The position numbers and the translations under genes were made by a program. From NCBI RefSeq assembly GCF_002074055.1, contig NZ_CP014619.1:682001-746000 (forward strand): a DNA stretch of 64,000 bases, in the 5' to 3' direction. Shown one piece after another: positions 4,481 to 21,850 of this stretch. The notes beneath the pieces are model-generated. The model was not told where the DNA came from and made no database searches. It saw only the letters and a program-made list of their open reading frames with translations. How positions within the stretch are numbered: position 1 is the first letter of the stretch; each line of letters starts with the position of its first letter. Source of the DNA: Frondihabitans sp. 762G35 (lineage in GTDB: Bacteria; Actinomycetota; Actinomycetes; Actinomycetales; Microbacteriaceae).

Positions 4481-4508
4481 AGGCTCCCCTGCAAACGCCA
4501 ACCCTCAC

Positions 4509-4546
4509 GAACGATAAAGGTTCCCTTCCGAACACCAGCCGGCTAG
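4509..4546 (+). repeat. Dispersed hairpin repeat, copy 1
   Basis: Contains CGAAC-GATAAAG-GTTCC at 4508-4524 (four paired bases, 7-nt loop), followed by the family's second block, CCCTTCCGAACACC. It lies 3' of the epimerase remnant, in a spacer. Confidence 0.5.
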
Positions 4547-4636
4547 CACGCACCGCGTCCTCCAGCGAATGCCGTCCGAGCCGGACCAAAGTTGTCCAAC
4601 TGCCGCCGTTTCGACGGAACCGAGTGGAATACCTTC

Positions 4637-4792
4637 TTACTTCTTGCGTCGCTTGCGTCTCTGGACGAGCCAAACGATAAAGCACGCCAGCAGAGTAGGC
4701 GGAAGCAAGATAAGAGCGAGGTTTGTGCGGGTATCGGCCACCGACGCTAGCGACAGAATTGACGCCAGATTTCCCCACAGATGAATCGGCAC
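4637..4792 (-). CDS. Very small single-helix membrane protein
   Basis: A 51-residue product from GTG 4792: MPIHLWGNLASILSLAS..., a hydrophobic helix LALILLPPTLLACFIVWLV, then an unusually basic tail QRRKRRKK. GGGAG lies about nine bases upstream of the GTG. The same frame is open much further upstream, but that part is Arg/Pro-rich and unlike protein, so I prefer the short start. It would insert with the basic tail in the cytoplasm. Function unknown. Confidence 0.4.
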   Translation of the reverse strand: MPIHLWGNLASILSLASVADTRTNLALILLPPTLLACFIVWLVQRRKRRKK

Positions 4793-5146
4793 CTGGTTCA
4801 ACTCCCATGATTTTCGATGATCGCGTTCCACACCAATAATGCGCTTGAAGCCAAAGGGAACGCCGCGACGGGGAGCACGCGGTGGTGCTCGTGACGGGCG
4901 ACGGTGCGCGCTGACCGTACGGTCCCCTTGAGAATAATTGCGACCCGACCACCGAACAGGTCCCGGATGGGAGCGCGTCATGGCGGCGCCTCGGTCATAA
5001 GAGAGCCCCCTGGGTCGAACCAACGATTCAAAATTGGGCCGTGGCCGCCCCCTGGCTGATTGACGTTCCTCTGCGGACGCGGGCCTGCAACCACCGAGCA
5101 ACTTCGACCATTGGGCCCATGTCAAATCCAGGAGTAGCCTCCGTCC
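4793..5146. other. Spacer with no supported gene
   Basis: About 350 bases between two small divergent membrane-protein genes. I see no convincing coding frame, RNA gene or clear hairpin here, only open frames of improbable Arg/Pro-rich composition. Confidence 0.5.
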
Positions 5147-5395
5147 ATGATGGACCAGAGGCCGGTTGACGATCAGCAGCCGCGTTGGGTCCGCCGGGAT
5201 AGTCAGCAGGCCTGCTTCCTGGTCGGCGCCCTTTTTCTCGTCCTCGCGATCCTTCTGCCCGTTCTTTTCATTGCGGGTAGAGAGTGGACCGCCCCCTCGA
5301 TCGTGCTCGCAGCCGTCCTCGAGATCTCCTGGATCGGTCTTGCCCAGGCGTACCTTCGCAGTGGCATCTACAAGAGAAACGGTACGAGGCGATAG
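5147..5395 (+). CDS. Small two-helix membrane protein, unknown
   Basis: An 82-residue product with a polar N-terminus (MMDQRPVDDQQPRWVRRDSQ), two hydrophobic helices (~24-44 and ~50-68) and a short basic tail. AGGAG is 12 bases before the first ATG, slightly far. No family recognised. The layout (charged tail, two helices, basic end) recurs in neighbouring orphan genes, but sequences are not obviously homologous. Confidence 0.55.
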   Translation: MMDQRPVDDQQPRWVRRDSQQACFLVGALFLVLAILLPVLFIAGREWTAPSIVLAAVLEISWIGLAQAYLRSGIYKRNGTRR

Positions 5396-5482
5396 GTCAA
5401 GGGTTGAGCTCTTGACCTCTTTATATAAGCGGCACAACGCGGCCGAGGAGTCCTCGTGTGCCCATAACATCCCTCGGGATTC

Positions 5483-5540
5483 GCGAACGCTCAGGGTCTC
5501 CTTGCGACCAGCGCGTCTGGTGCACGCTGATGGTCCGGCT
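5483..5540 (+). repeat. Dispersed hairpin repeat, copy 2 (degenerate)
   Basis: Has two family blocks, GAACGCTCAGGGTCTCC and, 40 bases on, ACGCTGATGGTCCGGC. The stem is imperfect. It sits between two small membrane-protein genes. Confidence 0.4.
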
Positions 5541-5612
5541 TCCGCACCTGAGAGGAGAACACGATTGCCTGCAGTCCCTTACTCTGCAAGTCACGAGCGG
5601 AAAGGGCTCAGC

Positions 5613-5852
5613 ATGGATGAAGACGAGGACGGCTTCCAGTTCGCACCGAACCAGCGGCAAAATTCCGTCCAGAAGGCTGGCTTCAACTTCAGCCTTGTTT
5701 TCGGCATCGCGCTGGTGCCCATCGGCATCGCTTTCATAGTTGTCCTAGCGGCAAAGCAGGAAAATCCGATTTTTGGCATACTTGCCGTCGCCGCGGGCGT
5801 CTTGCTCACCTTCGGTGCTCGTTCGGTCAACCGGGACCAAAAGCGAAGATAG
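5613..5852 (+). CDS. Small two-helix membrane protein, unknown
   Basis: A 79-residue protein with an acidic start (MDEDEDGFQFAPNQRQN), two predicted membrane helices (~24-46 and ~51-69) and a basic C-terminal tail NRDQKRR. GGAAAGGG lies six bases before the ATG, which is why I use this start although the frame is open upstream. Unknown function; same general class as the 5147-5395 product. Confidence 0.6.
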   Translation: MDEDEDGFQFAPNQRQNSVQKAGFNFSLVFGIALVPIGIAFIVVLAAKQENPIFGILAVAAGVLLTFGARSVNRDQKRR

Positions 5853-6051
5853 TGCAGGAGAACCTGGGTCGAACAACGACGACGACCAGTTCACTCCCGG
5901 TGCAAACATGACGCCTCTCCGAACCGCGATGGAAACTAACGCCGAGGCTCCTGCGCGACCGCAGTGAACCACACGGTAGGGGTTCCCGATCGGACGCCGG
6001 CCGCGAGCCGCACGTAGCGGGTTGGCGTGGACGCGCCAGTAGGCTCCGAGG

Positions 6052-6150
6052 ATGACTCTGCGCCGTGTCCTCGACTACATCGGCATCACCCGTCCAAAGG
6101 GTGAGCGCAGCTGGTTACAGAAGCTTCTGGAGCGACGTCGCGCGCGGTAG
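6052..6150 (+). CDS. Tiny basic ORF, uncertain
   Basis: A 32-codon frame, MTLRRVLDYIGITRPKGERS... ending LLERRRAR. Composition is protein-like and basic, but the GAGG before the ATG is too close to be a good ribosome binding site and there is no homology I recognise. It could be the surviving tail of a lost gene. The rest of 5853-6225 shows nothing. Confidence 0.2.
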   Translation: MTLRRVLDYIGITRPKGERSWLQKLLERRRAR

Positions 6151-6225
6151 GGATACCCCACGACACTTCGTTGAGCCCTGAACTGGGATGTGTTCCAGTC
6201 CTCGTCGCGCCCGTATGGTCGCGAC

Positions 6226-6726: not shown

Positions 6727-6811
6727 AAAGCCTCGAGCCGGAACGTTCCGGGCGAGCGCCGTGTGGATATGGAGGTTCCCAGGAGTCCACCGCCATGCGG
6801 CGTACGCATGC

Positions 6812-6855
6812 GATTCCCTCTGCCCGTCCGCCAAGGCGGACTCAGAAGGTCCGTC
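6812..6855 (+). repeat. Dispersed hairpin repeat, copy 3
   Basis: Carries a perfect five-base stem, CGGAC-TCAGAAG-GTCCG, at 6837-6853, preceded by the block TTCCCTCTGCCCGTC. Lies in the convergent spacer between the four-helix gene and the HAD gene. Confidence 0.6.
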
Positions 6856-6915
6856 TATCGTGCCCGAGCTTGGAATAAGTCGCGGCGCCAGGGCGGCGAC
6901 GGAAGCGAACGGCGT

Positions 6916-7644
6916 TCACCGTGGGCAAGCGAGTTCTAGCGCCCGCCACATCTGTTCAGGTCGAGTAATCACACATTGCATTCCCAAGACCGCACCGCCG
7001 ACGTCGTCGTGCGCTGAGTCGCCGATCATCAAACAATCCGTCGGGTCCGTGTCGAGCAAATCCGCCGTTAGTTGAAAGATCCGTGGATCGGGTTTGACGT
7101 ATCCGACCTCATAGGACAGGACCACTGCGTCCAGTGCCGAGGCGATGCCCCAACCTTCCAGCGCGGGGCGAATGTTTAGGGCAATGTTTGAGATGAGAGC
7201 CAGACGCACCCCCGCGCTCGATGCTCGGACGATGAACTCGGATACGCCCCGGTTCAACTCCCATTGGTTCGGCATCGTCTCGTAGAGAGCTTCGGCGTCA
7301 TCGAGTGCGATCGCGCCGTCGTGGCTCAGGGTTGAAACGAAAGCGTGCCTGTGTGCTGCCGGATCGAGATTCCAATCCAGGGTTGGGAAGAGATTTCTCG
7401 CGTCGCCCCAAACGTTTCCGAGCCTCTCCACTGCCATCGGCCTTGACGCAGGACTACTCGCCGTCAGGGATCCTGCCTCATCGATCCACATCTCCATGGA
7501 TCGCACGACTGCCGTGGTGTTATGAAAGTCCAGCAGCACGGCCCGAGGATGAGCACCCGATCGGCTGGACAGGGGCGACTCGCCTAACAATGCTTTGCCG
7601 CCGAACTGATCGCTTTGCGCTGGGTTGCTACCGTGTCCGCTCAT
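6916..7644 (-). CDS. HAD-superfamily hydrolase
   Basis: A 242-residue HAD-like protein. Motif I is LLDFHNT: the nucleophilic Asp is present, but the usual second Asp (DxD) is His. Motif II is LISNI, motif III is the Lys in VKPDPRIF, and motif IV is MIGDSAHDDVGGA. The helical cap lies between residues ~50 and 140. It is probably a phosphatase- or dehalogenase-like hydrolase; the altered second Asp weakens a simple phosphatase call. The start at 7644 has a poor ribosome binding site. Confidence 0.8.
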   Translation of the reverse strand: MSGHGSNPAQSDQFGGKALLGESPLSSRSGAHPRAVLLDFHNTTAVVRSMEMWIDEAGSLTASSPASRPMAVERLGNVWGDARNLFPTLDWNLDPAAHRHAFVSTLSHDGAIALDDAEALYETMPNQWELNRGVSEFIVRASSAGVRLALISNIALNIRPALEGWGIASALDAVVLSYEVGYVKPDPRIFQLTADLLDTDPTDCLMIGDSAHDDVGGAVLGMQCVITRPEQMWRALELACPR

Positions 7645-8458: not shown

Positions 8459-8505
8459 AGCTAACTGCACGGTCACCGTTCTCCTGCGGACGCCCACCGC
8501 CTCCA

Positions 8506-8558
8506 ACGGTGAGGGTTCCCTGGCGAACGGCGGCCGGGGAACGATCAGGGTCCGGCCT
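8506..8558 (+). repeat. Dispersed hairpin repeat, copy 4 (tandem blocks)
   Basis: Two family blocks in tandem: AACGGTGAGGGTTCCC then GGAACGATCAGGGTCCGG, with GCGAACGGCGGCC between them. A partial extra block, GTTCTCCTGCGGACGC, lies at about 8479-8494. Located 3' of the YdcF-like remnant. Confidence 0.55.
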
Positions 8559-8620
8559 GTGTGCGGCTCATTTCGATTGACGAACCGTAGCGCTGGCGAT
8601 CCCTCGGGCAGAATCAAACG

Positions 8621-8932: not shown

Positions 8933-9053
8933 TTGAAGAGGAAGACACCTAGTCGGCTAATCGCAGGAGATCTGATGCCTTGGGCGTGACCTTCGTGCGG
9001 GCCGATACGAAGCAGAGTCCTCGCCCTCCCGCGATTACGCGATCGATGCCGCC

Positions 9054-9100
9054 GGGAGTTCCGCTTCGAACGTCGGCCGAGACGAATGCTGAAGACCGCC
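9054..9100 (+). repeat. Dispersed hairpin repeat, copy 5
   Basis: Shares the block TTCGAACGTCGGCCGAG with the copy at 11406, followed by ACGAATGCTGAAGACCG; the stem itself has decayed. The remainder of 8933-9257 holds no supported gene. Confidence 0.5.
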
Positions 9101-9257
9101 TACCGCATGCGTCAAGTAAGTGAACAGCAGTGCTTGTGGTACACCGATCTAAGGCTTGGGAAGGTGATGGGCGGATTTCTTCCCCTCGTTCCCCGTCACG
9201 AACCCTTCGTTGTCGTAGCGGACCGATACGATCAACCAACACTGGAAAGGGAAAAGC

Positions 9258-9488
9258 ATGTTTGCCAATGTAGGTGGATACGGCTTCGCCGTTGGGGTCA
9301 TCGTCGCCTACGTCGTCATTGCCGCCCTGGGGATCTTCGTCGGGTACCTCATCATCCGCACCGCGATCCTCCGCGCCCTAAACAGTCATTACAAGACCGT
9401 TCGACTCTTCGAGAAAACCGGTCAATGGCAACCCCGCTACCAAGGCAATCGGCGACCTCACGGAGCCGACACCACCGAGAACTCCTGA
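9258..9488 (+). CDS. Small single-helix membrane protein, unknown
   Basis: A 76-residue protein: a short N-terminus, one long hydrophobic helix at ~8-34 (GVIVAYVVIAALGIFVGYLI), then a polar basic region. GGAAAGGG a few bases before the ATG supports the start. Such architecture fits a membrane anchor or a small superinfection/holin-like protein, but nothing in the sequence decides that. Confidence 0.6.
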   Translation: MFANVGGYGFAVGVIVAYVVIAALGIFVGYLIIRTAILRALNSHYKTVRLFEKTGQWQPRYQGNRRPHGADTTENS

Positions 9489-9885
9489 ACGAGGATCGAG
9501 CGCTTGCAAGGCGTCACCTCTGCCCAAGAATGATGCACGCAGGATGACGTGGACACAGGATCGTTCTCGCTCACACCGGCCTCGCTTATCGCGCACTTCT
9601 GCCGTAGCTCGGCACTGCGCGTTTGGGAACGGACGCGGCGGTGCGGACACGGGCGACCCTTCATTCAGCCACTTTCGGCGGGTACACACGCGCACCTCTT
9701 AGCCACACGAACTTCCGCCCCAAGGACGGGTCGCCCCTCACGCTCTGCAGGACCGGGTTGAATGCCATCGGCCTCGTCATTGTCTGGTTCTGCTCAGGCC
9801 ACACCATCGCCCGCCGCAACATACCCTCACGGTGAAGGTCCAGCCGCTAGACGGTGCCGGTCGAGCGCGAGCCCATGTCGATGCA
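9489..9885. other. Spacer with no supported gene
   Basis: About 400 bases. Short open frames exist, one reading like a Ser/Ala/Pro linker (SASSLSGSAQATPSPAA), which may be a scrap of a lost secreted protein. None has a ribosome binding site or a recognisable domain. Confidence 0.4.
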
Positions 9886-10410: not shown

Positions 10411-10491
10411 GCGCTCAGTGTCTCAGGGCGGCGGATGACCACACCGCCTTTCAGGGCCGTCGTCGCGTCGCGTGACTCTCACACGCGCTCG

Positions 10492-10535
10492 GGGTTCCCT
10501 CTGCGCGTCTGTCGAGGCGGACGTTGAAGGTCCGG
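10492..10535 (+). repeat. Dispersed hairpin repeat, copy 6
   Basis: Perfect stem CGGAC-GTTGAAG-GTCCG at 10518-10534, preceded by GGTTCCCTCTGCGCGTC. It abuts the 3' end of the minus-strand gene ending at 10544. Confidence 0.6.
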
Positions 10536-10543
10536 TTGCGGAG

Positions 10544-10834
10544 TTAGTCGACGAGAGAGACAAGGGACTCGACGGCGTTCCACAGGTCGTGCTGAGTGCC
10601 GCTAGCAATGTGCGCATCGGTCTTCGTGTACTTGTATTGCGCCGAGAGAGCGATCCTGTGGATGGTTCCGATTTGCGCGTTCGTGCCAGCGGAGGTGACC
10701 GTCCAGTTCCTGCCATCGTTCCGACGAACCGTGTAGGAACCCCCGTCATCCGTCTTGGCTTCGAAGACGACTTCTCCTGTCAAGTCGGAGTCGCGTGATG
10801 CGGACCGTCCGTCAACCTGGACGTCGGTGATCAT
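10544..10834 (-). CDS. Small soluble protein, unknown
   Basis: A 96-residue product rich in beta-strand pattern (ITDVQVDGRSASRDSDLTGE, then GGSYTVRRNDGRNWTV) and a C-terminal amphipathic helix (QHDLWNAVESLVSLVD). I start it at ATG 10834 because AAAGGA stands six bases upstream; the frame is also open to 10900. No signal or membrane segment. Function unknown. A hairpin repeat follows its stop codon directly. Confidence 0.55.
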   Translation of the reverse strand: MITDVQVDGRSASRDSDLTGEVVFEAKTDDGGSYTVRRNDGRNWTVTSAGTNAQIGTIHRIALSAQYKYTKTDAHIASGTQHDLWNAVESLVSLVD

Positions 10835-10961
10835 GACGGGTCCTTTCATAGCTGCCATCTCTTGTGACGATGTTTGGGAGGTGTCTTCCTTGCGATGCAA
10901 GCACTTTCATAGTCCTCTTCGCCGGAAGACGCCTTGCGGGTCGCTAATGACCTTCTCCCAC

Positions 10962-11027
10962 GCAGAGGGTTCCCCCGCGGACGCGAGTCGAGATCCCTCG
11001 AAGGCGAACGCTGTACGTCCGGCTAGC
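10962..11027 (+). repeat. Dispersed hairpin repeat, copy 7
   Basis: Long copy: GGGTTCCCCCGCGGACGCG, a middle block, and GCGAACGCTGTACGTCCGG. It overlaps the stop codon (11023-11025) of the minus-strand membrane-protein gene. Confidence 0.55.
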
Positions 11028-11295
11028 GGTCCTCGTCAACGGGACCCACATCAGTCCCATTGTCCGCAACCTTGGCTCGCCGGAATAGGGACCCTCGATT
11101 CGAGGTCAGCGCCAGAGCAATAAAGGCAAGAATGGATGCGACCACCACATTTCCACCAACAAGCGGCCGGGAAAACACGTCGACTGCCAAAAGCGCAACG
11201 GTTGCGGCAAGGTATGCGCAAGACGCAATAAGCCAATTCCGCGCGTGCCGAACCGATCGCTGCCGTCGAGGCTTTGAACTGTTGCCGGTGTTCAT
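11023..11295 (-). CDS. Small two-helix membrane protein, unknown
   Basis: A 90-residue product: a basic N-terminal tail (SSKPRRQRSVRHARN), two hydrophobic helices (~20-42 and ~46-64) and an acidic end. The ATG at 11295 has no strong ribosome binding site. Its stop codon is formed inside a copy of the dispersed repeat. No family recognised. Confidence 0.5.
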   Translation of the reverse strand: MNTGNSSKPRRQRSVRHARNWLIASCAYLAATVALLAVDVFSRPLVGGNVVVASILAFIALALTSNRGSLFRRAKVADNGTDVGPVDEDR

Positions 11296-11393: not shown

Positions 11394-11405
11394 CCCCCCC
11401 CCCCC
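11394..11405. repeat. Poly-C tract of twelve bases
   Basis: An uninterrupted run of 12 C directly before a dispersed repeat copy. Runs this long are slippage-prone. It is not inside a supported coding frame. Confidence 0.8.
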
Positions 11406-11439
11406 GAACGTCGGCCGAGGCGGACGCTGAAGGTCCGGC
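11406..11439 (+). repeat. Dispersed hairpin repeat, copy 8
   Basis: Perfect stem CGGAC-GCTGAAG-GTCCG at 11421-11437, preceded by GAACGTCGGCCGAGG. This copy is close to the family consensus. Confidence 0.6.
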
Positions 11440-11562
11440 CCGCGCGCGCCATTGGTCAACTGATCTGACAGCAGTCCCTCCCGAGGTAACCGCTCCGAGT
11501 GGCCCGGCCTTGGTGGCACGATGCGGGTTCGTCTTCCGGCTGCGGTCACATAGTCTCGCTCC

Positions 11563-11793
11563 ATGGAGGAAGTAACCGGTGTCGTCGTCTGGTGGAGCGA
11601 GGAAGAGGGATGGGGCACCCTCCGGTCGGAGATGGCTCGTTCCGACGTGTTCGCCCACTTCTCGAACCTGGACATGGAGGGACATCACGTCCTGCAGCCG
11701 GGCCAGAGAGTCGATTTTCTCCTAGAGGAATACCCGCGTGGACAAGATGGGTATTTCTATCGGGCCGAGCAAGTTCGGGTCATCGGCCTTTAG
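11563..11793 (+). CDS. Cold-shock-domain-like protein
   Basis: A 76-residue single-domain protein with CSD spacing: GVVVWWSEEEGWGTLRSE in place of the usual KWFN..KGFGFI (RNP1 region), then SDVFAHFSNL (the DVFVHFS RNP2 motif) and QRVDFLLEE (the VxFxxxxG strand). The RNP1 aromatic residues are partly substituted, so RNA binding may be altered. It is a divergent member of the CspA/CSD family, probably cytoplasmic. Confidence 0.75.
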   Translation: MEEVTGVVVWWSEEEGWGTLRSEMARSDVFAHFSNLDMEGHHVLQPGQRVDFLLEEYPRGQDGYFYRAEQVRVIGL

Positions 11794-12158: not shown

Positions 12159-12374
12159 CTATGGACGAGGTCGAAACGAACCGCGCGCCGTCCAGGCGAA
12201 AATGCCTACGGCGATGAACGCCAGCCCGAGAAGGACGAAGAGGCCTCCTTGCGCCTGCCCGTGAATCAGCTCGACAGCCCCAAGCACGACGCAGAGCAGG
12301 CCAGCCAGGGGGAATGTGAAGCCTACGAGGATGAGGGCCACCCTCGCCTGAAAGAGCCAGAACCGCTTGAACAT
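12159..12374 (-). CDS. Small two-helix membrane protein, unknown
   Basis: A 71-residue protein with two long hydrophobic helices (~8-35 and ~42-62) and a short basic end. GAGGAT is about nine bases upstream of the ATG at 12374. It is transcribed away from the sensor kinase operon that follows. No family recognised. Confidence 0.55.
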   Translation of the reverse strand: MFKRFWLFQARVALILVGFTFPLAGLLCVVLGAVELIHGQAQGGLFVLLGLAFIAVGIFAWTARGSFRPRP

Positions 12375-12476
12375 GAAGTCGATCCTCGCCCAGGAAGGGA
12401 CCTTGCACTCAACCCGAGATTTCGACGCTCCGGCAGATGTGCGCAGGACGTTGCGATTCCGGGCAAAGTACGACTT

Positions 12477-12495
12477 GTCTCCTCCGCGAGGAGGA
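12477..12495. promoter_or_regulatory. 19-bp inverted repeat upstream of sensor kinase (site 1)
   Basis: GTCTCCTCCGCGAGGAGGA, with arms CTCCTC and GAGGAG around CGCGAG. The identical 19 bases recur at 14386. It is centred about 60 bases before the predicted transcription start of the kinase gene, a suitable position for a NarL/FixJ-type activator site. Confidence 0.55.
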
Positions 12496-12547
12496 TCCCT
12501 GAGGCGGAAAGCGTGAGAATTGCGCGAGAGAATCTACTTTGGGTCCC

Positions 12548-13729
12548 ATGAGGAATCTCGTCCGGCTCGTCGACGCTGCCTTGCTCCCCGTTGTCGGGGT
12601 CGTCTTCGGCGTTCTGTGGATCATCGGCACTGCCAACACGATCTCGGACAGGACGCCGGTCGAGTGGATCCCCTACGCCCTGATCGGCGTGGCGATCGCC
12701 ACCGCGCGCCTCTCCTCGGCGGGAGCGCTGAGTCTCGTCATCTCCGGGCTGGCCGTTCAGGCGGCCGTTCCTCGGCTGCGGTTTGCGGAGGGGGGCTGGC
12801 CGGCGTACGCGGGTCTTCTGATCGTGCTCTTCGTCGTCGCAGCCAAGCCGGATGCCAGATCGCGGGTATTCGGTCTGATCGTGGGGGTCACAGGATCCGT
12901 CGCCGTGGGGATCCTGGTCGGCGCCGCTGGCGGTCAGCCGCTGGTGGCGATGCTGGTCGCCGGTGTCAGCACCGTCGCAGCGTGGGTGCTCGGTCTAGCG
13001 GTCACGCTCGTCCGCCAGCGGAACGTCGCATCGAAGCGCAGTCGCGCCCTCGAACACGAGGTGGATGCTGCCGCGACAGAGCTCGCCGTCGCCCGGGAGC
13101 GCGAGAGGACCGCGCAGGACGTGCATGACATCATGGCGCACTCGCTGGCGGTGATCGTCGCTCAGGCCGATGGGGCCCTATTCCTGCAAGGGGAGAGACC
13201 CGCTGCTGCAACGGAGAGCCTGACGGCGATCTCCGTGGCCGCGCGCGAATCCCTGGGAGAGCTGCGGGTGATGCTGCAGTCGCTGACGGCGGATCCCGAG
13301 GGGCACTCTCATCCGACGCTGCAAGACCTCGACTCACTTCTTGCTCGCATGCGGTCCGCGGGTCTGCGGGTCTCGGAGACGACGTTCGGTGAACCCGGCC
13401 TACTCACGGCCGGGCAACAGCTGGCCGTCTACCGAATCGTGCAGGAGAGCCTGACGAATGCCCTCAAGCATTCGGGGCCCACGTCCGAGGTGCGCGTCAC
13501 TCAAGACTGGCGCGGCCCGGGGCTCGCTCTCGGCGTCACCTCGATTGGCGGCCATGAACCACGACCAGGGTCGCCTGCCGGAACTTCTCGTGGAATCACC
13601 GGGATGACCGAGCGGGCGCGGCTCGCCGGGGGCTGGCTCGTAGCGGAGCAGGATCACGAGGATGCTCGCACCTTCGTCGTCACCGCCTTCATCCCCACGG
13701 TGGCCGCACCATCGGTAGCTGTCCGATGA
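12548..13729 (+). CDS. Sensor histidine kinase (HisKA_3/NarL-type partner)
   Basis: A 393-residue membrane kinase. About six hydrophobic segments fill residues 5-150. Then follows a coiled segment and the HisKA_3 dimerisation/phosphoacceptor motif ERTAQDVHDIMAHSLAVIVA, with the phosphorylated His in DVHD. The ATP-binding N-box is ESLTNALKHSG, and the C-terminal GITGMTERARLAGG closes the domain. It pairs with the overlapping response regulator (ATGA junction). I start it at ATG 12548: TACTTT lies exactly seven bases upstream, which suggests a leaderless mRNA; a TTG at 12539 is the alternative. Confidence 0.9.
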   Translation: MRNLVRLVDAALLPVVGVVFGVLWIIGTANTISDRTPVEWIPYALIGVAIATARLSSAGALSLVISGLAVQAAVPRLRFAEGGWPAYAGLLIVLFVVAAKPDARSRVFGLIVGVTGSVAVGILVGAAGGQPLVAMLVAGVSTVAAWVLGLAVTLVRQRNVASKRSRALEHEVDAAATELAVARERERTAQDVHDIMAHSLAVIVAQADGALFLQGERPAAATESLTAISVAARESLGELRVMLQSLTADPEGHSHPTLQDLDSLLARMRSAGLRVSETTFGEPGLLTAGQQLAVYRIVQESLTNALKHSGPTSEVRVTQDWRGPGLALGVTSIGGHEPRPGSPAGTSRGITGMTERARLAGGWLVAEQDHEDARTFVVTAFIPTVAAPSVAVR

Positions 13730-14382
13730 GTCCGATCCGTGTCGCGATCGCCGACGACCAACGGCTTTTCTGCTCGGGCATTCAGATGCTCATCGAGTCG
13801 CAGTCTGACCTGGAGTTCGCGGGCGCCGCGTATGACGGCGACACCATAGTGAATCTCGCGGCGACTGTCGGACCAGACGTCATTCTGATGGACATTCGTA
13901 TGCCCGGCCGCAATGGGATCACGGCGACTGAAGCGATCTGCGACCGGGCCGGCGATGCCGCTCCGAAGGTCATCATCCTGACAACTCACGAACGAGACGT
14001 CGCCGTACTTCAGGCGATCACCGCCGGCGCGAGCGGGTTCCTCCTCAAAGACACCAACCCGGACTTCCTCCTCGCCGCGATCAGGACCGTGCACGAGGGC
14101 CAGTCCGTGATCGCCCCTCGCAGCACGGTCGCGCTCATCCAGGACCTGATCCCGGCAGGCGGCAAGCCGGCCGACCAGTCGGTCATCCAAGCCCTGTCCG
14201 TGCGAGAGAAGGAAATCTTTCTCCTGGCCGCGCGCGGTCTCACCAACGCAGAGATAGCCTCGACGGCCTTCATCTCAGAGACGACGGTGAAAAGTCACGT
14301 CTCGAGTATCTTCGCCAAACTTGACCTGACGTCGAGACTGCAGATCGTCGCGTTCGCGTACGAGCACGGCCTCTTGAGGTAG
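13726..14382 (+). CDS. NarL/LuxR-family response regulator
   Basis: A 218-residue two-domain regulator. The receiver domain has the acidic pair in IADDQ, the phosphorylated Asp in VILMDIRMPG and the conserved Lys in FLLKDT. The C-terminal LuxR HTH is complete: LSVREKEIFLLAARGLTNAE then STAFISETTVKSHVSSIF. It overlaps the kinase gene by four bases and is its evident partner. The 19-bp inverted repeats before the kinase and directly after this stop codon are the best candidates for its DNA sites. Confidence 0.92.
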   Translation: MSPIRVAIADDQRLFCSGIQMLIESQSDLEFAGAAYDGDTIVNLAATVGPDVILMDIRMPGRNGITATEAICDRAGDAAPKVIILTTHERDVAVLQAITAGASGFLLKDTNPDFLLAAIRTVHEGQSVIAPRSTVALIQDLIPAGGKPADQSVIQALSVREKEIFLLAARGLTNAEIASTAFISETTVKSHVSSIFAKLDLTSRLQIVAFAYEHGLLR

Positions 14383-14385
14383 GCA

Positions 14386-14404
14386 GTCTCCTCCGCGAGG
14401 AGGA
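14386..14404. promoter_or_regulatory. 19-bp inverted repeat upstream of glycosyltransferase (site 2)
   Basis: Identical over 19 bases to the element at 12477 (GTCTCCTCCGCGAGGAGGA). It begins four bases after the response-regulator stop codon and lies about 60-75 bases before the glycosyltransferase start. Confidence 0.55.
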
Positions 14405-14417
14405 GAGAAACCCTCCC

Positions 14418-14440
14418 GGGTGAACAGTCGTAGTTCACCC
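14418..14440. promoter_or_regulatory. Inverted repeat before glycosyltransferase
   Basis: Perfect eight-base arms, GGGTGAAC and GTTCACCC, separated by AGTCGTA. It could be an operator or an RNA hairpin/attenuator in the leader of the downstream gene. Confidence 0.45.
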
Positions 14441-14462
14441 CGCAAACGATGAGGTTGGAGGT

Positions 14463-15680
14463 ATGAAAGCCCTTCGGATTCTTCTCGTCATCGACTACAA
14501 GCTCGCCTACCTCGGAGGCGCTCAAACGGCCCTGCGGCAGCAGGCGATGGCCCTCGCCGGCGCCGGTCACGACGTCACGGTGATCGGATCGGACGCCACG
14601 TCCGATCCGGTCCTCGCCGAGACGGGGGTCTCCACCGTGGACCTCCGACCGCTGCTGACCGTCCCAGTCGTGGACCTGCCCATTTTCGTCAACAGTGCCG
14701 CCATGCGGACGCGGCTCGCCGGTCTTCTCGATCGGCGGCGCGTCGAAATCGTAATCGCCCACTCCGAGTTCGGCCTTGCCGCGGCAGCCCTCGAGGTCGC
14801 CGGCGACCGAGGAATCCCCACGATGCACACCGTCCACACGTTCTTCTGGCGGGGCCCGCGTCTCGCCGGCGTCGTGGCCCCGCTCGCCTCCGCTCTGCAC
14901 GCCGCGGTCACCGGGCTGCCGGTCCCTCGCGGGGAGTTGGCCGAGCGACGACTGGACAGCTCTCTGCGCAAGATGACCCTGGCCGTGTCCCGCCGAGCGG
15001 ACCTGGTCGTCTCACCGTCCCACCACCAAGGTCATGCGCTGCGCAGGGCCGGTCTCCCGAGGGTGGCCGTCATCTCCAACGCGACACGCATCCCCGCCGA
15101 GCACGCGGTGCTCCCGCCGCTCGACGGGCCGCTTCGGCTTGTCTGGGCAGCCCGGCTCGCGCCCGAGAAGCGTCTGAACGTCGCACTGCAGGCCATGCAG
15201 ATCGTCGAAGCGACGATGGGGACCGGCGCAGTGCACCTGGACGTCGCGGGCGGGACACCGCGGTCGGGACCCCAGGCGAGGTCTGTCACGTTGCACGACC
15301 GCGTGACGCCCGAGGAGATCGTGGCGCTGCTCGGGAACGCGCACGCAGCAGTCATCACGTCGCACGGGTTCGACAACCAACCCATGATCGCCATCGAAGC
15401 GTTTCAAGCCGGTCGCCCCGTCATCGTCTCCGATCCCACCCTCGCGGCCGAGTTCGGGGCCGCGGCCATCGCCACGCGCACACCGGACGCCCCGGGTCTC
15501 GCCCGCATGATCATCCGGCTGGCAACTCACAGCGAACAACTCCTAGAGCACGTGAGGGCGGCGACGGCGGCCGGGCTCGCATCTTCGCCAGAGTGCCACG
15601 TCGCGCAGCTCGAGGCTGCCTACAAGCGGCTGAACCAGAATCGAACAGGATCTGTCCTCGCCGCGCGAAGGTCCGCATGA
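14463..15680 (+). CDS. Glycosyltransferase family 4 protein
   Basis: A 405-residue GT-B fold enzyme. The N-terminal domain begins LRILLVIDYKLAYLGGAQTA and the C-terminal domain opens with VWAARLAPEKRLNVALQAM, followed by the acidic/sugar-nucleotide region GFDNQPMIAIEAFQAGRPVI. It probably transfers a sugar from a nucleotide donor to an envelope or secondary-metabolite acceptor. GAGGTTGGAGG stands just before the ATG. It is separated from the two-component genes only by two inverted repeats and may be their regulatory target. Confidence 0.85.
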   Translation: MKALRILLVIDYKLAYLGGAQTALRQQAMALAGAGHDVTVIGSDATSDPVLAETGVSTVDLRPLLTVPVVDLPIFVNSAAMRTRLAGLLDRRRVEIVIAHSEFGLAAAALEVAGDRGIPTMHTVHTFFWRGPRLAGVVAPLASALHAAVTGLPVPRGELAERRLDSSLRKMTLAVSRRADLVVSPSHHQGHALRRAGLPRVAVISNATRIPAEHAVLPPLDGPLRLVWAARLAPEKRLNVALQAMQIVEATMGTGAVHLDVAGGTPRSGPQARSVTLHDRVTPEEIVALLGNAHAAVITSHGFDNQPMIAIEAFQAGRPVIVSDPTLAAEFGAAAIATRTPDAPGLARMIIRLATHSEQLLEHVRAATAAGLASSPECHVAQLEAAYKRLNQNRTGSVLAARRSA

Positions 15681-15717
15681 GCATGCGGTGCCCCGGCGCG
15701 GCCCGACCAATAGACCC

Positions 15718-15837
15718 TCAGACCCGACGCTCTGCGCCTTGATAAGGCGGCTCACCCTCCGCCACCCTGAGGTCTTGCTCCTCAAGCGTCTCGAGGGTTG
15801 GAAGGCGCTCGTCCTCCCGCCGGCCTTCCATGTTCAT
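15718..15837 (-). CDS. Tiny acidic protein, unknown
   Basis: A 39-residue product, MNMEGRREDERLPTLETLEE..., ending PPYQGAERRV. The strongest argument is a near-ideal GGAGG nine bases before ATG 15837. It is charged and soluble, with no recognisable domain. It lies convergent with the glycosyltransferase gene. It is too short for homology-free certainty. Confidence 0.4.
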   Translation of the reverse strand: MNMEGRREDERLPTLETLEEQDLRVAEGEPPYQGAERRV

Positions 15838-15999
15838 CGTCGTAATCCTCCACCGCCTCCCTTCTTGTCGAGAAGGCTCCAGCACAGAGTTCCCCCGCAC
15901 GTATCCGGTTCCTTATTTGTTTTGTCCAGCGGCCACACCCTTCCAAGTTCGGTCTTGCGATGGATGTGAAGGGCCTCGAATATCTGAGACTTTTTCCCC

Positions 16000-16452
16000 G
16001 TGAAGAAACCCTTTTTGATCGGCATCGCGGCCGTGGCCCTCGGTGCGGGCGCCACCGTACTGGCCTTGGAAACGACAGACGCTGCGATTTATCTTCCGCC
16101 CCGTGGAGACGTCCCTGCGGCGTCGGCGTCCGTGTCAGTCGTCGCCCGTACGTATTTGGAAGCTGCTGAGCACAGTGACTGTGGCTTGACGAGAGCCCTC
16201 ACGGATGCACGCTCAGCAATGGCGCCTTGGTGCAGGCATCCTCACGTCGTCTCGTTCCACAATTTGGAGACACCAATTTCTTCCCCGGCCACGGAATCCT
16301 CGGGGAACGAAGCGGAGACTGTCGTGCGTTTCCACTTTGTGATCACGGGCGGAGCCGATGCGGGTTTTTCGTCCAACGCAGATCAAATTTGGGGCCTTTG
16401 GTTCCGGCACACGCAGGCGGGGTGGCGCGTGTGGGATCAAGGCGTCGCCTAG
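16000..16452 (+). CDS. Small secreted or membrane-anchored protein, unknown
   Basis: A 150-residue product from GTG 16000: a signal-peptide-like start MKKPFLIGIAAVALGAGATV, then a mature region with helices (SVVARTYLEAAEHSDCGL) and a beta-rich end (ETVVRFHFVITGG, GWRVWDQGVA). The strand pattern is reminiscent of NTF2-like/DUF4878 extracellular domains, with two Cys that could pair. Assignment to a family is tentative. The ribosome binding site is weak. Confidence 0.55.
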   Translation: MKKPFLIGIAAVALGAGATVLALETTDAAIYLPPRGDVPAASASVSVVARTYLEAAEHSDCGLTRALTDARSAMAPWCRHPHVVSFHNLETPISSPATESSGNEAETVVRFHFVITGGADAGFSSNADQIWGLWFRHTQAGWRVWDQGVA

Positions 16453-16469
16453 ATCATCGGCGCCCATGG

Positions 16470-16655
16470 CTGTCCAACGCTGAGGTCCTAAAGGCCCTTA
16501 ACAAGGCTCAGGCCGACCGTGCCGCCGCACAGCTCCGACGCGCCGGCCGCACTCCCGAGGCGCAGGACCCCCGCCGCAGCGGGGCCCGCGAGGCGGCGGA
16601 GCGGGAGCGTCAGCGCCGCGACCGCGCCCGCGGGGACGACGCCCGCGAACGCTGA
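16470..16655 (+). pseudogene. Orphan C-terminal fragment of a charged helical protein
   Basis: One frame reads as plausible protein, ALNKAQADRAAAQLRRAGRT then AAERERQRRDRARGDDARER, ending TGA at 16653-16655. It has no start codon or ribosome binding site. It looks like the 3' remnant of a basic coiled-coil protein. The remaining bases up to 16838 show nothing else. Confidence 0.25.
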
Positions 16656-16838
16656 GAGTATTCAGTCGGTGCTGTCGTCTCCCAAGAGGTCTGAATTCGC
16701 GTAGGCCAGACGTCGCAGGTAATTCGACAAGAAGTACAAGGTTGACGCCCCGGACGGAGCTAAGCCCCCGCACCACAGCGCGTCAGCTCCACCAAGAGCA
16801 AAGTGCCCACGTTCATAGCGACACACACGTCGTTTTTT

Positions 16839-16896
16839 ATACTCAGAGAGTTTGAGGGTTGACGGTTAGGACTCGAACAGTTAGAGTTCTGAGTAT
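16839..16896 (+). promoter_or_regulatory. marR promoter and operator
   Basis: A near-canonical promoter: TTGACG at 16859-16864, a 17-base spacer, and TAGAGT at 16882-16887, with the ATG seven bases on. Nine-base inverted arms ATACTCAGA (16839-16847) and TCTGAGTAT (16888-16896) flank the whole promoter. The right arm includes the start codon, so binding there would block initiation. Confidence 0.65.
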
Positions 16897-17341
16897 GAAC
16901 GACGCAGAGCCCACCTTCACCAGCAACCTTGAACTGCTGCGCTGGGTTGGCTGGGCCCAGCAGCAGGCCGGGCTCGACTGGATCCGCGAACGCGGGCTCA
17001 GCCACCAGCAGAGCTTCGCGCTCGGCTTCCTCGTCCAGAACCCCGGCTCCATCCAGCGCGACATCGCCGAGATGACCCGCACCACACCGGCCAGCGTCTC
17101 GAGCCTCCTGCAGGGGCTCGAGGCACGAGGCCTCATCGAACGACGCACCGAAAGCGGTAACGAGCGCAGCAAGCGCGTCTACGCCACCTCGGCCGGCACC
17201 GAACTAATCTCTGGGTTCGACACCGCCATGCGAGCGGCCGAAGACATCATCCTGGCTCCCCTCGACGAGGCCGAGCGAGAGACGCTGCACGGCCTCCTCA
17301 CCAAGATCACCTCCGTCCTCCCCCAGCCGACCCGGCAGTAA
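16895..17341 (+). CDS. MarR-family transcriptional regulator
   Basis: A 148-residue winged-helix protein: dimerisation helix ELLRWVGWAQQQAGLDW, HTH SIQRDIAEMTRTTPASVSSL with recognition helix LLQGLEARGLIERR, and a wing with ESGNERSKRVYATSAG. The start at ATG 16895 fits a leaderless transcript from the promoter directly upstream; a GTG at 16859 lies inside the -35 box and is unlikely. It precedes a MATE transporter gene by 88 bases on the same strand and likely represses itself and the pump. Confidence 0.85.
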   Translation: MNDAEPTFTSNLELLRWVGWAQQQAGLDWIRERGLSHQQSFALGFLVQNPGSIQRDIAEMTRTTPASVSSLLQGLEARGLIERRTESGNERSKRVYATSAGTELISGFDTAMRAAEDIILAPLDEAERETLHGLLTKITSVLPQPTRQ

Positions 17342-17429
17342 CCGGGCGGCGCGGCATCGGCCCCACCCTCGATCCTTCTTCTTCCCCACCTACCGGGGCG
17401 GCTTCGCCGCGCCCGAAAGGAGTTCCGCC

Positions 17430-18857
17430 ATGAGTACCTTCTCCCCCAGCGCCGACGTGGTCGGCAGCAACCGCTGGTACCTCGCCTCCGCGCCGATCGT
17501 GCGCGCACTCGTCCACCTCTGCATCCCGATGGCAGCCGCCATGATCGTCGGCGCCGTCTACAACGTCATCAATGCCGGCTTCATCGGGTCCCTCCACGAC
17601 CCGATCCTGCTGGCCGCCGTCACCTTCGGCTCGCCGATCCTCGGCCTCGTCATGGCCGTCGGCGGGGTGTTCGGCGTGGGCGGCTCCTCGCTCATCTCGC
17701 GCCTCCTCGGAGCATCCGAGCAGGATCCCGCGAGGGCCGGAGACATCAAGCACGTCGCGTCGTTCGCCGTCTGGGGCGCCGTATTCGCGGGCGCCGTCGT
17801 CGGGGCGCTCGGCCTCATCTTCCTGAACCCGCTGGTCGGGCTGCTCGGCGCCCAAGGCTCGGCGGTCCCGGCCACAAGTGCCTTCGTCGGTGTGATGCTG
17901 GCGTTCGTGCCCGTGCTGGCCGCAGCCTTCTGCCTCGAGCAGATCGTCCGGTCGGAGGGCGCCGCGCACCAGGTGATGGTCGGCCTCATCGCCTCGACGG
18001 TCGCCAACCTCGTCTTCGACGTGCTGTTCATCCTCGTGCTGCACTGGGGCGTGGCCGGTGCCGCCCTCGCGGTCGGCCTCTCGAACGTCGTCACGATCGT
18101 CTACTTCGTCACCTACCTGATTCGGCACAGCGAGAACATCAGCCTGTCGCCGAAGTGGTTCACCCTCCGCGCTGACATCCTGAAGCCCGTGTTCGGCGTC
18201 GGCGTCGGCGAGCTGCTCCAGTCGGCGTTCCTCATCGTCACGTCGCTCGTGCTGAACAACCTCGCCGCGAACTACGGCGACGGCCCGCTCGCGGCGATGG
18301 GCGTCGCGGTCCGGATCGCGCAGGTGCCGGAGTTCCTCATCATGGGCGTCACCCTCGGAGTCCTGCCGCTCCTCGCCTACTCGTTCGGCAAGGGCGACGC
18401 GGCGCGGTTGGCCTCGTCGATCCGCGGCTCAGCCATCGCGGTCGGGGCGATCGCATTCTTCTTCTCGATTGTCGTGTTCGTCTTCCGCGACCAGGTGTTC
18501 TCACTGTTCGTGTCGGATCGCTCATTGCTGTCGCTCGGCGCGATCATCATCACCGCGCAGCTCGTGTCGATGATCTTCAACGGCTTCACCGGGCTCATCA
18601 CGTCGCTCTTCCAGGCGACCGGGCGGGCACTGCCGGCCATGATCATGTCGATCACGCAGGGGGTGCTGTTCATCCCGATCGTCATCTTCGCGAACCTCTG
18701 GTTCGGGCTCGACGGCATCATCTGGGCGCTGACGGTCAGCGAGGGCCTCGTCCTGGTGGCCGGACTCGTGATGTGGTTCGCCTCGCGCGGCAGCATCGCC
18801 CGCGGGCTCGCCGAGGGCAGCCCCGAGCGCGCCGAGGCCGTGCTCGAAGAGGCCTGA
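17430..18857 (+). CDS. MATE-family multidrug/toxin efflux transporter
   Basis: A 475-residue protein with twelve hydrophobic segments in two similar halves. MATE signatures are visible: LVHLCIPMAAAMIVGAVYNV at the first helix, GVFGVGGSSLISRLLG (the conserved G-x-x-x-x-x-x-R region), and in the second half VRIAQVPEFLIMGVTLGVLP. It should be a Na+- or H+-driven drug antiporter of the inner membrane. AAAGGAG is seven bases before the ATG. It lies directly behind the MarR gene. Confidence 0.92.
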   Translation: MSTFSPSADVVGSNRWYLASAPIVRALVHLCIPMAAAMIVGAVYNVINAGFIGSLHDPILLAAVTFGSPILGLVMAVGGVFGVGGSSLISRLLGASEQDPARAGDIKHVASFAVWGAVFAGAVVGALGLIFLNPLVGLLGAQGSAVPATSAFVGVMLAFVPVLAAAFCLEQIVRSEGAAHQVMVGLIASTVANLVFDVLFILVLHWGVAGAALAVGLSNVVTIVYFVTYLIRHSENISLSPKWFTLRADILKPVFGVGVGELLQSAFLIVTSLVLNNLAANYGDGPLAAMGVAVRIAQVPEFLIMGVTLGVLPLLAYSFGKGDAARLASSIRGSAIAVGAIAFFFSIVVFVFRDQVFSLFVSDRSLLSLGAIIITAQLVSMIFNGFTGLITSLFQATGRALPAMIMSITQGVLFIPIVIFANLWFGLDGIIWALTVSEGLVLVAGLVMWFASRGSIARGLAEGSPERAEAVLEEA

Positions 18858-19001
18858 GCAGGATCGCGAGTCGGCAGGATCGTGGGCGACCAGCAGGATC
18901 GCGCCGGCCCCTCTACAAAGCCGCAGTGACATGGTCGCTTTCCTTCAGGCCCGGCCATGACCGCGCGGGACCACGAGAGTGGTGACAGGTGACGCGGACG
19001 G

Positions 19002-19044
19002 GGGTCTGCTCCGAACGCTGGCCGAGACGAATGATGGTGTCTGA
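19002..19044 (+). repeat. Dispersed hairpin repeat, copy 9 (degenerate)
   Basis: Matches copy 5 over CGAACG(C/T)(T/C)GGCCGAGACGAATG; the stem has decayed. Lies between the MATE gene and the next minus-strand gene. Confidence 0.45.
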
Positions 19045-19127
19045 CTTTCGTGTACCGGGTGTCGCCACCCATTCGACGCTCGGTCACCATGCCATCAGAC
19101 GCAAGTTCCGCCTCGGGACCTGGTCGG

Positions 19128-19757: not shown

Positions 19758-19931
19758 CTACGCACCCCCTTGATCTCGGCGATCGCCAAGCGACTCGTGA
19801 CGACTCAGCTTGGACCCCGGGCGCGCTCTGAACAAGAAAGTGAGGATCCGGCTGCGGACGTCTGCGGAGTCAACCGGGAGATATCCCGGCTGTTTGTTAA
19901 CGCCTTGCTGCCATCGCATACGATCGGCCGC

Positions 19932-20303
19932 ATGACCGAGCCCCTCATCGCCGTCGGCTACTGGCGCAATGCGAATCGCCTAGACCTTCTCGACGTCGGA
20001 GCATCCGTGAACGCTGCTCTCACCACATCAGATGCCGAGGACACAGCGAATTACCTCTCTCGTGGTTTCGTTGCTCGAGCGTGGATGGGCCGAAGTACGT
20101 GTCGAATCTGCGGAGCAACTAACGGCAGCCTCGACCTCAGCGACGGAATCTACGTCTGGCCCGAAGGGCTGGCTCACTACGTCCCCGAACATAAAGTCCA
20201 GCTGCCCAACCAATTCTTGACTCACCTGGAGAGTCAGAGTGAGGCCCTCGAAAAGCGAGTCATCGACGAATCGTGGTGGAGTGGCCAAGTGGCGACCTCG
20301 TAG
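19932..20303 (+). CDS. Small soluble protein with CxxC motif, unknown
   Basis: A 123-residue protein beginning MTEPLIAVGYWRNANRLDLL. The middle has CRICGATNGSLDLSDGIYVW followed by PEGLAHYVPEHKVQLP, a distinct motif set that looks conserved, with one Cys pair that could bind a metal. I start at ATG 19932, where the protein-like sequence begins, though the frame is open from 19770. The function is unknown; it could be an immunity-type protein, which is only a guess. Confidence 0.6.
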   Translation: MTEPLIAVGYWRNANRLDLLDVGASVNAALTTSDAEDTANYLSRGFVARAWMGRSTCRICGATNGSLDLSDGIYVWPEGLAHYVPEHKVQLPNQFLTHLESQSEALEKRVIDESWWSGQVATS

Positions 20304-20366
20304 ATGCCGGTCGTAATCGAAGTGGGCAGGACATCCTCGTGCGTTCTTCGAGGCGTTGCCTGAGTC

Positions 20367-20401
20367 GGGAACGCTGAGGGTTCCTCAACTCGCGGTCGGC
20401 C
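20367..20401 (+). repeat. Dispersed hairpin repeat, copy 10
   Basis: Perfect stem GGAAC-GCTGAGG-GTTCC at 20368-20384. Compared with copies 6 and 8, the stem bases change on both sides (A-T for G-C) and keep pairing. Confidence 0.6.
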
Positions 20402-20458
20402 ATCTGCCACTGGCGTCCCGAGCAGGGGGCTCCGATTCGTGGTGACAAGAAGTACTTT

Positions 20459-20898
20459 GTGGGCGTCGGGAAGAGAAGCGGGTCTCGAGCGATTCTCGTC
20501 GTGTCGATCATCGCGGTGGTACAGGTTGCGCTCGTCTTGGGATACCGGGTTTGGTCGGACGTGAATGAGCACACGCAGACCGCGGACGTTTTCACTGCCC
20601 TGCGAATCGTGGACAAGCGCATCGACCTGTCCGGAGAGGTTCCGGATACCACTCGCACCGAAAGCGGCCTGGCCGTCCGTCGAGGGGCTCAGGAATCGCG
20701 CCGACCATTGTCTATTCGTTCACCGCCGCCGAGACCCCAGATTGAGAGACGCGATTTCACGCCGCGGTGTCTCAGGGGCGCTATGGCAAAGGTGATGAGC
20801 CGTGGTCTCTCGAGATGCACGGCTACGACGTGACTGTTCTCTCGGCCGGTCCTGATGACTCGAACGGCCGCGTGTACATTTCCATCTCGACGCTTTGA
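20459..20898 (+). pseudogene. Degraded membrane-anchored protein gene with several frameshifts
   Basis: The 5' part encodes one helix and a soluble start: GSRAILVVSIIAVVQVALVL, then WSDVNEHTQTADVFTALRIV. After about 20,670 the sensible protein jumps to another frame (GIAPTIVYSFTAAETP), meets a TGA, and resumes with GRYGKGDEPWSLEMHGYDVT and DDSNGRVYISISTL before the final stop at 20,896. At least two shifts and one stop are needed. The intact product would be a small single-pass protein; family unknown. Confidence 0.5.
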
Positions 20899-21040
20899 CC
20901 CCCACACACCCCGGCAGTTGCTGTCGCCAAGTAGAGGTTCCGCGCGCTGACTATGTCAAAGTTTTCTGGCCCCGGCCGGACGGAGAAAGTTGGCCCCAGC
21001 CTGGCCAGCAAAGAGCCCTTGGTTTCAGCGCATGTCGTTC

Positions 21041-21604
21041 TTAGTCCGTTTCCGGAGGTGCTTCGGGCGCAATGGCCGCAAGCGCCGTGAGGTAGTGATT
21101 GTTGATACTCACTGACGTCACTTCTTTGAGCCGGTAACCAAACGGCTTTCGATGCCAGGACGCGTTGGGACGAACCTCGAGGAGGCCGAACCACTTGCCG
21201 TGTTTGCCGACGTATTCGCCGATCCACAAGCAGTCGGTAATCACTCGGTCGCGTTCGATGGCAACCAAGGAGGCTAGGGACGACATCGTCTCTATGACTT
21301 GGTCGGTTTGCTCCAGGTCGACGGTGGCCAGGTCTTCGGGAGCGGGTTGTGGTTGCGTCATCGCGAAGTCCGTTTCAAAGGACCGATCTTTCTTGAGTGA
21401 CGAGATGTCGCGGACTCGGATGGCGATCAGGCCATCTGAGTAGCCGCCATCCATGGTGCGGGCGATGAGGGCCCACTTCTTGCTGAGACCCACGACGAAT
21501 CCGTCGATGCGATCCATGTCGTCGATCTCGCGGGTGATTCGATAGATCGATGAGGTCTCCAGTGCTCGCTGAAGCTTGGCCTGGACCTCTGATCGATTGC
21601 TCAC
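21041..21604 (-). CDS. Soluble protein, unknown (~187 aa)
   Basis: A 187-residue protein from GTG 21604, chosen because GGAGAGG lies just upstream. Two halves with related beta-rich character are visible: TREIDDMDRIDGFVVGLSKK with ARTMDGGYSDGLIAIRVRDI, and later CLWIGEYVGKHGKWFGLLEV with YRLKEVTSVSINNHYLTALA. This resembles proteins with paired SH3/WYL-like or DUF-type beta barrels of unknown role. There is no signal sequence. I cannot name a family. Confidence 0.6.
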   Translation of the reverse strand: MSNRSEVQAKLQRALETSSIYRITREIDDMDRIDGFVVGLSKKWALIARTMDGGYSDGLIAIRVRDISSLKKDRSFETDFAMTQPQPAPEDLATVDLEQTDQVIETMSSLASLVAIERDRVITDCLWIGEYVGKHGKWFGLLEVRPNASWHRKPFGYRLKEVTSVSINNHYLTALAAIAPEAPPETD

Positions 21605-21635
21605 TATGACCTCTCCGCCTCGAACCGGACAGGTC

Positions 21636-21758
21636 ATGGCAGTTGTCGACCTTATCGGCCTCCAGGAACTCCTGAGACAAGTCAGGCGCGTCTTAGAGTC
21701 CAACCGAGACACCGTCGAGCTGCGCTACTGGGAAATAGGCCGCGGGAAGGGCCTCTAG
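21636..21758 (+). pseudogene. Possible DUF1016/YhcG N-terminal remnant
   Basis: A 40-codon frame reads DLIGLQELLRQVRRVLESNR then ELRYWEIGRGKGL and stops. The YW-IGR ending after an amphipathic helix is characteristic of the start of DUF1016 (YhcG, PDDEXK-associated) proteins, which are normally ~350 residues. Here the frame ends right after the motif and a repeat copy follows, so it looks like a truncated relic. The link rests on a short motif. Confidence 0.3.
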
Positions 21759-21780
21759 GAGCTGACAGTTCTTTTCATTG

Positions 21781-21850
21781 GAGGTTCCCCCGCGGACAAG
21801 CTCCAGCTGACCCGCAAGACTTCCCCCCGCGAACGCCGGCCGAGCTGTGC
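21781..21850 (+). repeat. Dispersed hairpin repeat, copy 11 (long form)
   Basis: Contains GAGGTTCCCCCGCGGACAAG and, about 40 bases on, TTCCCCCCGCGAACGCCGGC followed by CGAG: the second family block twice. Located between the DUF1016-like scrap and the GNAT gene; it is the last copy before the core genome. Confidence 0.5.

Follow-up and report, generated by a model that had tools for sequence, protein, structure and literature searches.

Integrons are the best-known route by which small genes are stockpiled and exchanged in bacteria. Their attC sites carry boxes with the consensus RYYYAAC ... GTTRRRY and, as a single strand, fold into a paired hairpin. Hin/Gin-type DNA invertases and Tn3/gamma-delta resolvases act on a pair of sites, inverting or resolving the DNA between them, and arrays of many cassettes are, to our knowledge, not known for these enzymes. 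In the staphylococcal cassette chromosome, the large serine recombinases CcrA/B/C put gene cargo into a fixed site; these recombinases lie inside one big element, and we know of no tandem arrays of single-gene cassettes in that system. Clusters of attC sites without an integrase are termed CALIN (PMC9024848, PMC8618304), and one survey reported that complete integrons were not found in Actinobacteria (PMC9024848). Here we describe an array of short directional repeats in a stretch of 64,000 bp from Frondihabitans sp. 762G35, a member of the Microbacteriaceae (contig NZ_CP014619.1, positions 682,001 to 746,000; the whole stretch is called the window). Judged from sequence comparisons, these repeats are probably the recombination sites of a cassette array, exchanged by a small serine recombinase of the resolvase/invertase type, and the whole would represent an integron-like capture platform.

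The initial annotation of this DNA had described a dispersed repeat with a short stem and loop, and the repeat is real. Its core pattern, with up to two mismatches, was found at 11 places on the + strand of the window and gave 15 matches when both strands were counted, as four near-palindromic places also match on the - strand (100 shuffled sequences gave a mean of 4.3 matches and a maximum of 8). The perfect stems that had been reported at 6837, 10518, 11421, and 20368 are present, as is the stop codon formed at 11023 (- strand open reading frame (ORF) 11023-11295). A second block noted near many copies also exists, but it is part of the joint between two cores and not a separate element. The full site is directional and about 57 bp long, with two cores that face the same way at a spacing of about 36 bp. 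With relatives included, its approximate consensus is CG-N5-GG-TT-CC-N4-CG-NN-CG, followed after some 10 nt by CGMACG-NTGAR-GG-TC-CG-GCTTSCG. Directly behind the conserved G, the dinucleotide was TT in 35 of 40 first cores (core1) and TC in 30 of 40 second cores (core2). Joints vary in having one, two, or three cores.

A covariance model built from 18 copies (R1) was searched against the 3.41-Mb genome of the strain at E < 0.1, with 150 of 3704 candidates scored. There were 16 matches, all on the + strand, with 15 at genome positions 678,971-702,393 and a lone one at 2,945,331. All 15 clustered matches are copies that were used in building the model, and the lone copy is not among them; weak copies elsewhere in the genome may have escaped R1, as 150 of the 3704 candidates were scored. 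The array is a single co-oriented cluster of 23 kb. That no copy is seen after 22 kb of the window, as initially reported, held true, but the array extends further in the other direction, starting at genome position ~678,971, some 3 kb before the window begins. The G+C content of the array is 59-66% in 2-kb bins; the flanking bins are mostly 68-75%, with a few on the left at 62-63%.

Similar clusters were found in other members of the genus, for which we used seven Frondihabitans genomes, one per species, including F. sucicola NBRC 108728 (G006) and PAMC 28766 (G004). With R1 (E ≤ 0.1), four of the seven had sites: 16 in the window's genome, 20 in G004, three in G006, and one in G002. A second model (R2, 40 sites) added sites on contigs C6 and C7 of G005, where R1 had found none, and a further pair in G006; the genome-wide counts are, therefore, lower bounds. 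When R2 was run on 604 kb of fetched DNA, it gave 79 matches at E ≤ 1, and among the 61 strongest, 59 lay in nine multi-site clusters, with 58/59 co-oriented within their own cluster. Wider searches returned little. The Frondihabitans site was matched in 2 of 199 genomes of the family, both Frondihabitans, in a search that scored 24 candidates per genome and was thus insensitive. A degenerate pattern gave six stretches in the genome_contigs set, two in F. sucicola and four singles elsewhere that scored at most 18.7 bits by R2; there was no match to the site in the viral_contigs set, and array DNA had few, short matches to plasmids.

Comparison of the arrays with one another revealed that common segments start and stop at cores, across species. 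For example, the segment at window positions -869 to -332 recurs in two separate arrays of G004, and TTCC marks its start in all three places. For shared blocks of ≥100 bp and ≤95% identity, 102 ends fall inside arrays, and 15 of these were ≤10 bp from a core break, where 1.7 were expected and none of 2000 random shifts reached this number; the core list in this test was loose (matrix score >7), giving 33 matches on the array strand and 19 on the opposite strand of the window's own array. When only model-called sites were used and no identity filter was applied, 11 of 118 ends were within 20 bp (3.1 expected; 2/2000 shifts). The cassette unit is a short segment, usually of one gene, whose first bases follow immediately on one core (G^TC or G^TT) and whose last part is the core that comes next. 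That the array segments represent gene cassettes with site-specific joints is well supported. This is because the clustering, the co-orientation, and the homology breaks at cores point to cassettes, and transcription terminators or repeats of the miniature inverted-repeat transposable element or repetitive extragenic palindromic type (MITE/REP) do not predict this pattern. Of the explanations initially proposed, it is thus the recombination sites separating small cassette-like genes that our data support.

A candidate for the enzyme was found on a plasmid of PAMC 28766, where two genes annotated as "recombinase family protein" lie directly left of the first site. We called their products SR-A and SR-B. 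SR-A has 188 aa and is of the resolvase/invertase type, with a Resolvase domain (PF00239) and a C-terminal HTH_7 domain (PF02796), both above cut-offs. Its best solved relatives are the DNA-invertase 4m6f (E 5e-36) and gamma-delta/Tn3 resolvases, and no NCBIfam model matched it above cut-off. SR-B is 39% identical to SR-A. There are six SR-A genes in the genus, one of them truncated, and their leaders have a core that points away from the gene within ~130 nt of its start (matrix scores 26.0, 17.7, 16.0, 8.8, and 7.6; the truncated gene scores 13.3). Two replicons of G004 agree at 91% identity over SR-A and its leader as far as the core, with different DNA beyond. No core was found with the matrix in the four SR-B leaders examined.

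As an equal-treatment control, the 5' flanks of all serine recombinases of the genus were searched with R2, and a gene was counted if at least two matches of ≥25 bits, pointing away from it, were within 20 kb on its 5' side. This was the case for 4/6 SR-A, 4/7 SR-B, and 0/24 other serine recombinases, one of the 24 having a single match of 25.5 bits; three flanks were shorter than 20 kb (contig ends or overlapping fetch), and two fragments on the small contig C12 of G002, whose flanks were not searched, were scored as site-free. SR-A and SR-B together differ from the rest (8/13 vs. 0/24, p 3e-5), in a split that was made post hoc. Several arrays, including that of the window, have neither SR-A nor SR-B adjoining. 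On contig C6 of G005, at ~157.5-162 kb (L193), we noted another + strand cluster of sites, at the head of which no recombinase was seen, and on contig C7 of the same genome (L203/L205, ~38.3-39.2 kb) a broken SR-B is followed by an SR-A-like leader, as though SR-A had been lost between them.

SR-A is not confined to Frondihabitans. Relatives (E ≤ 1e-55) were found in 47 of 299 Microbacteriaceae genomes and in 27 of 85 genera, and a matrix trained on Frondihabitans array sites alone detected leader cores in 8/27 SR-A leaders of the family vs. 0/17 control serine recombinases. A leader list that was made by hand after inspection of the leaders covers 26/32, including those of Frondihabitans. On the array side of 20 family loci, convincing directional arrays were seen at L168, L171, L174, and L181, and less clear ones at L163 and L165. 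The most telling individual example is a segment of 1201 bp that is 98.75% identical in two genera (L171 and L168). In L171 it adjoins the SR-A leader core (741), and in L168 it lies at a core inside the array (3446); the identity begins exactly at the core and stops at the next core, a few bases beyond its G^TT. The L174 locus belongs to plasmid D35 of Curtobacterium sp. MCBD17_035, in which the recombinase is followed by genes for GNAT, nucleotidyltransferase, and hypothetical proteins; its cores are mostly intergenic (8/10 of those picked by eye from 17 array-strand matches, and 10/14 for all in the stretch). In three SR-A copies (L121, L117, and L133) there is a common sharp far boundary 55-57 nt past the SR-A stop codon, just after CTCCACA, which suggests that the ~0.8-kb recombinase unit is itself mobile.

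On good, though circumstantial, evidence we infer that a serine recombinase likely drives these exchanges. Recombinase dimers would bind the cores and cut at the central dinucleotide, and a circular cassette would then be inserted either at the leader core or at an array core that matches. SR-A is the best candidate for catalysis, as it is transcribed away from the array with the leader core in a possible attI role; we prefer it because of this leader core and its wide conservation, and SR-B may act together with SR-A or in its place. Since core1 mostly has TT and core2 mostly TC, core2 would match a leader core with TC, and core1 would match other cores with TT, in agreement with the breaks observed at both. 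Orphan arrays such as that in the window, in whose genome neither recombinase was found, would be relics or be served in trans. We also lean, with somewhat greater reserve, towards a wider view in which serine-recombinase "integrons", orphan arrays included, represent a second, independently evolved gene-capture platform across the Microbacteriaceae, and perhaps in other Actinomycetota and on plasmids, the exchange dinucleotide (TC, TT, or AC) setting the partner sites. If true, the same layout with an unrelated enzyme would represent convergent evolution of gene capture, and it would explain small-gene accessory islands of Actinobacteria that are beyond the design of tools based on IntI and attC.

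Several of our results weigh against this interpretation. No SR-A relative (at E ≤ 1e-55) and no SR-B was found in the window's genome. Taken alone, SR-A differs less strongly from the other serine recombinases in the equal-treatment control (4/6 vs. 4/31, p 0.013); all four positives among those 31 are SR-B genes, which were separated after that result, and two of them are in the same array as SR-A. This fuller control slightly lowers the odds that a serine recombinase is the engine. In the family, 19/27 leaders fail the Frondihabitans matrix, convincing arrays outside Frondihabitans were seen at only ~4-6 of the 20 loci, with little at the remainder, and strand counts, when pooled, show only a modest bias (28 v 13, with leader cores counted, and 120 v 96). 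Among eight close leaders (28 pairs) identity is 0.82 up to the core and 0.52 past it, but this drop is by itself no proof of cassette insertion, as both ends of the conserved SR-A unit differ between copies, including the end near the stop codon. The 98.75% identical cassette starts with TC but ends with TT; a single simple conservative event is thus insufficient and more than one event would be needed. Lastly, position 8, off the break, is the best centre of dyad symmetry in core2, with 13.5, on the exchange dinucleotide, second; it is in the family leaders only that 13.5 is best.

The alternative that survives best, although we regard it as unlikely, is that the same cassette arrays are moved by another enzyme, such as XerCD or an undetected or plasmid-borne tyrosine recombinase, and that SR-A and SR-B are mere neighbors or plasmid resolvases whose own site resembles a core. 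The absence of both proteins from our searches of a genome that has arrays favors this alternative, as does the frequency of SR-A relatives on plasmids, where they are annotated as resolvase or DNA invertase. Matches to Phage_integrase (PF00589), among which we presume XerC and XerD to be, are likewise present in all seven genus genomes, but none of the 35 falls within a Frondihabitans array, whereas SR-A and SR-B head arrays in a constant arrangement and the leader core resembles the array sites. Searching 3938 ORFs near Frondihabitans arrays with a home-made profile also gave no integron integrase. Two other candidates were rejected. A divergent 350-aa protein at 29,511 has relatives in G001 and G003, in which R1 found no site, and a plasmid-borne family (L056/L057/L049) is at least ~29 kb from the nearest site on shared replicons and did not turn up in the genome of the window.

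Exchange by a serine recombinase would give a system that can be set beside those described at the outset. Like integrons and CALIN, it has tandem small cassettes, some common to several arrays, with one co-oriented site per joint and a break at G^T; it has a recombinase transcribed away from the array beside an attI-like core (the SR-A leaders, whose attI role is assigned by sequence only), and there are orphan arrays without an enzyme. Unlike integrons, the candidate recombinase is a serine and not a tyrosine recombinase, and exact matches to either attC box were absent (0/48 sites). The host group also differs, being one reported to lack complete integrons (PMC9024848). The system shares with Hin/Gin-type invertases and Tn3/gamma-delta resolvases the kind of protein that SR-A is and a dyad core around a dinucleotide, and it would share with the staphylococcal cassette chromosome a serine recombinase that moves gene cargo into a fixed site, SR-A having a weak match to the shared domain. 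Among open-licence papers, no serine-recombinase integron was described in the titles and opening lines of abstracts. Overall, the system appears integron-like in its working, and its enzyme and site place it outside the integrons, so that, as far as the open-licence literature goes, it may be a kind of its own.

It is very improbable that the sites are transcription terminators or 3'-end processing signals at which horizontally moved genes merely end. Many sites are indeed at the 3' ends of genes, on either gene strand, and the cores are GC-rich and part-palindromic; however, they occur only in clusters and in one orientation, and shared segments also begin at cores 5' of genes, so terminators do not account for the breaks. 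Nor is the stem conserved as in an intrinsic terminator. The initial annotation had argued for a functional hairpin from compensatory changes, a view that our data do not support, as covariation was not above shuffles for 18 copies and only slightly above for 40 (paired cells equalled by 3/500 shuffles), and the middle pair of the proposed stem is unpaired in 30/40 copies. RNAalifold returned no structure for 48 sites. We read the symmetry of the core as a probable protein-binding dyad and not an RNA stem. Least credible of all is a MITE/REP-like repeat with many insertions into a tolerant accessory region, for although the repeats are short, lie in spacers, and include two copies that are 98% identical over 43 bp (10473-10545 and genome position 680,412), dispersed insertion in either orientation predicts neither the single orientation per cluster (58/59) nor recurring gene-plus-site segments broken at the core.

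The features of the array within the window are listed in Table 1.

Table 1. Sites, shared segments, and genes of the cassette array (window coordinates)
Feature	Position	Strand	Support
Site, weak	1679-1721	+	R1 E 0.044 in own genome
Site, one clear core	2405-2456	+	R1 E 0.0025
Segment common to G002, 87% over 793 bp; ends 7 bp beyond core1 break of site at 4462	3702-4490	+	
Site, two cores	4462-4535	+	R2 54.2 bits
Site, two cores	5475-5549	+	R2 47.5 bits
Site, weak; segment shared with G004 begins at 6030	5961-6036	+	R2 25.5 bits
Site containing the initially reported 6837 stem	6792-6865	+	R2 49.2 bits
Haloacid dehalogenase-like hydrolase gene between sites	6916-7644	-	PF00702, E 3e-13
Site, three cores (8466, 8503, 8538)	8466-8566	+	R2 50.8 bits for 8494-8566
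Site	9037-9110	+	R2 46.3 bits
Segment common to G006 (75%); ends at single core, 9826	9208-9845	+	
Site	10473-10545	+	R2 52.7 bits
Site, cores 48 bp apart, adjoining stop codon of - strand ORF 11023-11295	10948-11033	+	R2 41.2 bits
Site, single core behind 12-C run	11399-11449	+	R2 46.5 bits
Cold-shock domain protein gene between sites	11563-11793	+	PF00313, E 3e-12
Site, weak	18982-19055	+	R2 26.0 bits; R1 E 9.5e-4
Site, one core, with the initially reported 20368 stem	20342-20393	+	R1 E 0.0089
Segment common to a G004 array (90%); begins at GGG^TTCC of core	20378-20951	+	
Final site of array, weak	21800-21873	+	R2 25.6 bits

Within the array there is a site-free stretch at window positions 12159-18857 that contains longer ORFs. 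By eye only, these include a putative sensor kinase (12548-13729), response regulator (13726-14382), and glycosyltransferase (14463-15680), and a putative MarR regulator (16895-17341) and MATE-type transporter (17430-18857). The sites at window 11421-11478 and genome 679,143-679,217 have 44 identical bases past the core, terminating in CAGCAGTCCC; as a similar tail follows several other sites, the functional site may exceed the length that we modelled. Directly 5' of the core of the first of these two sites, a run of 12 C residues (11396-11407) takes the place of the usual left block, and this run could vary in length.

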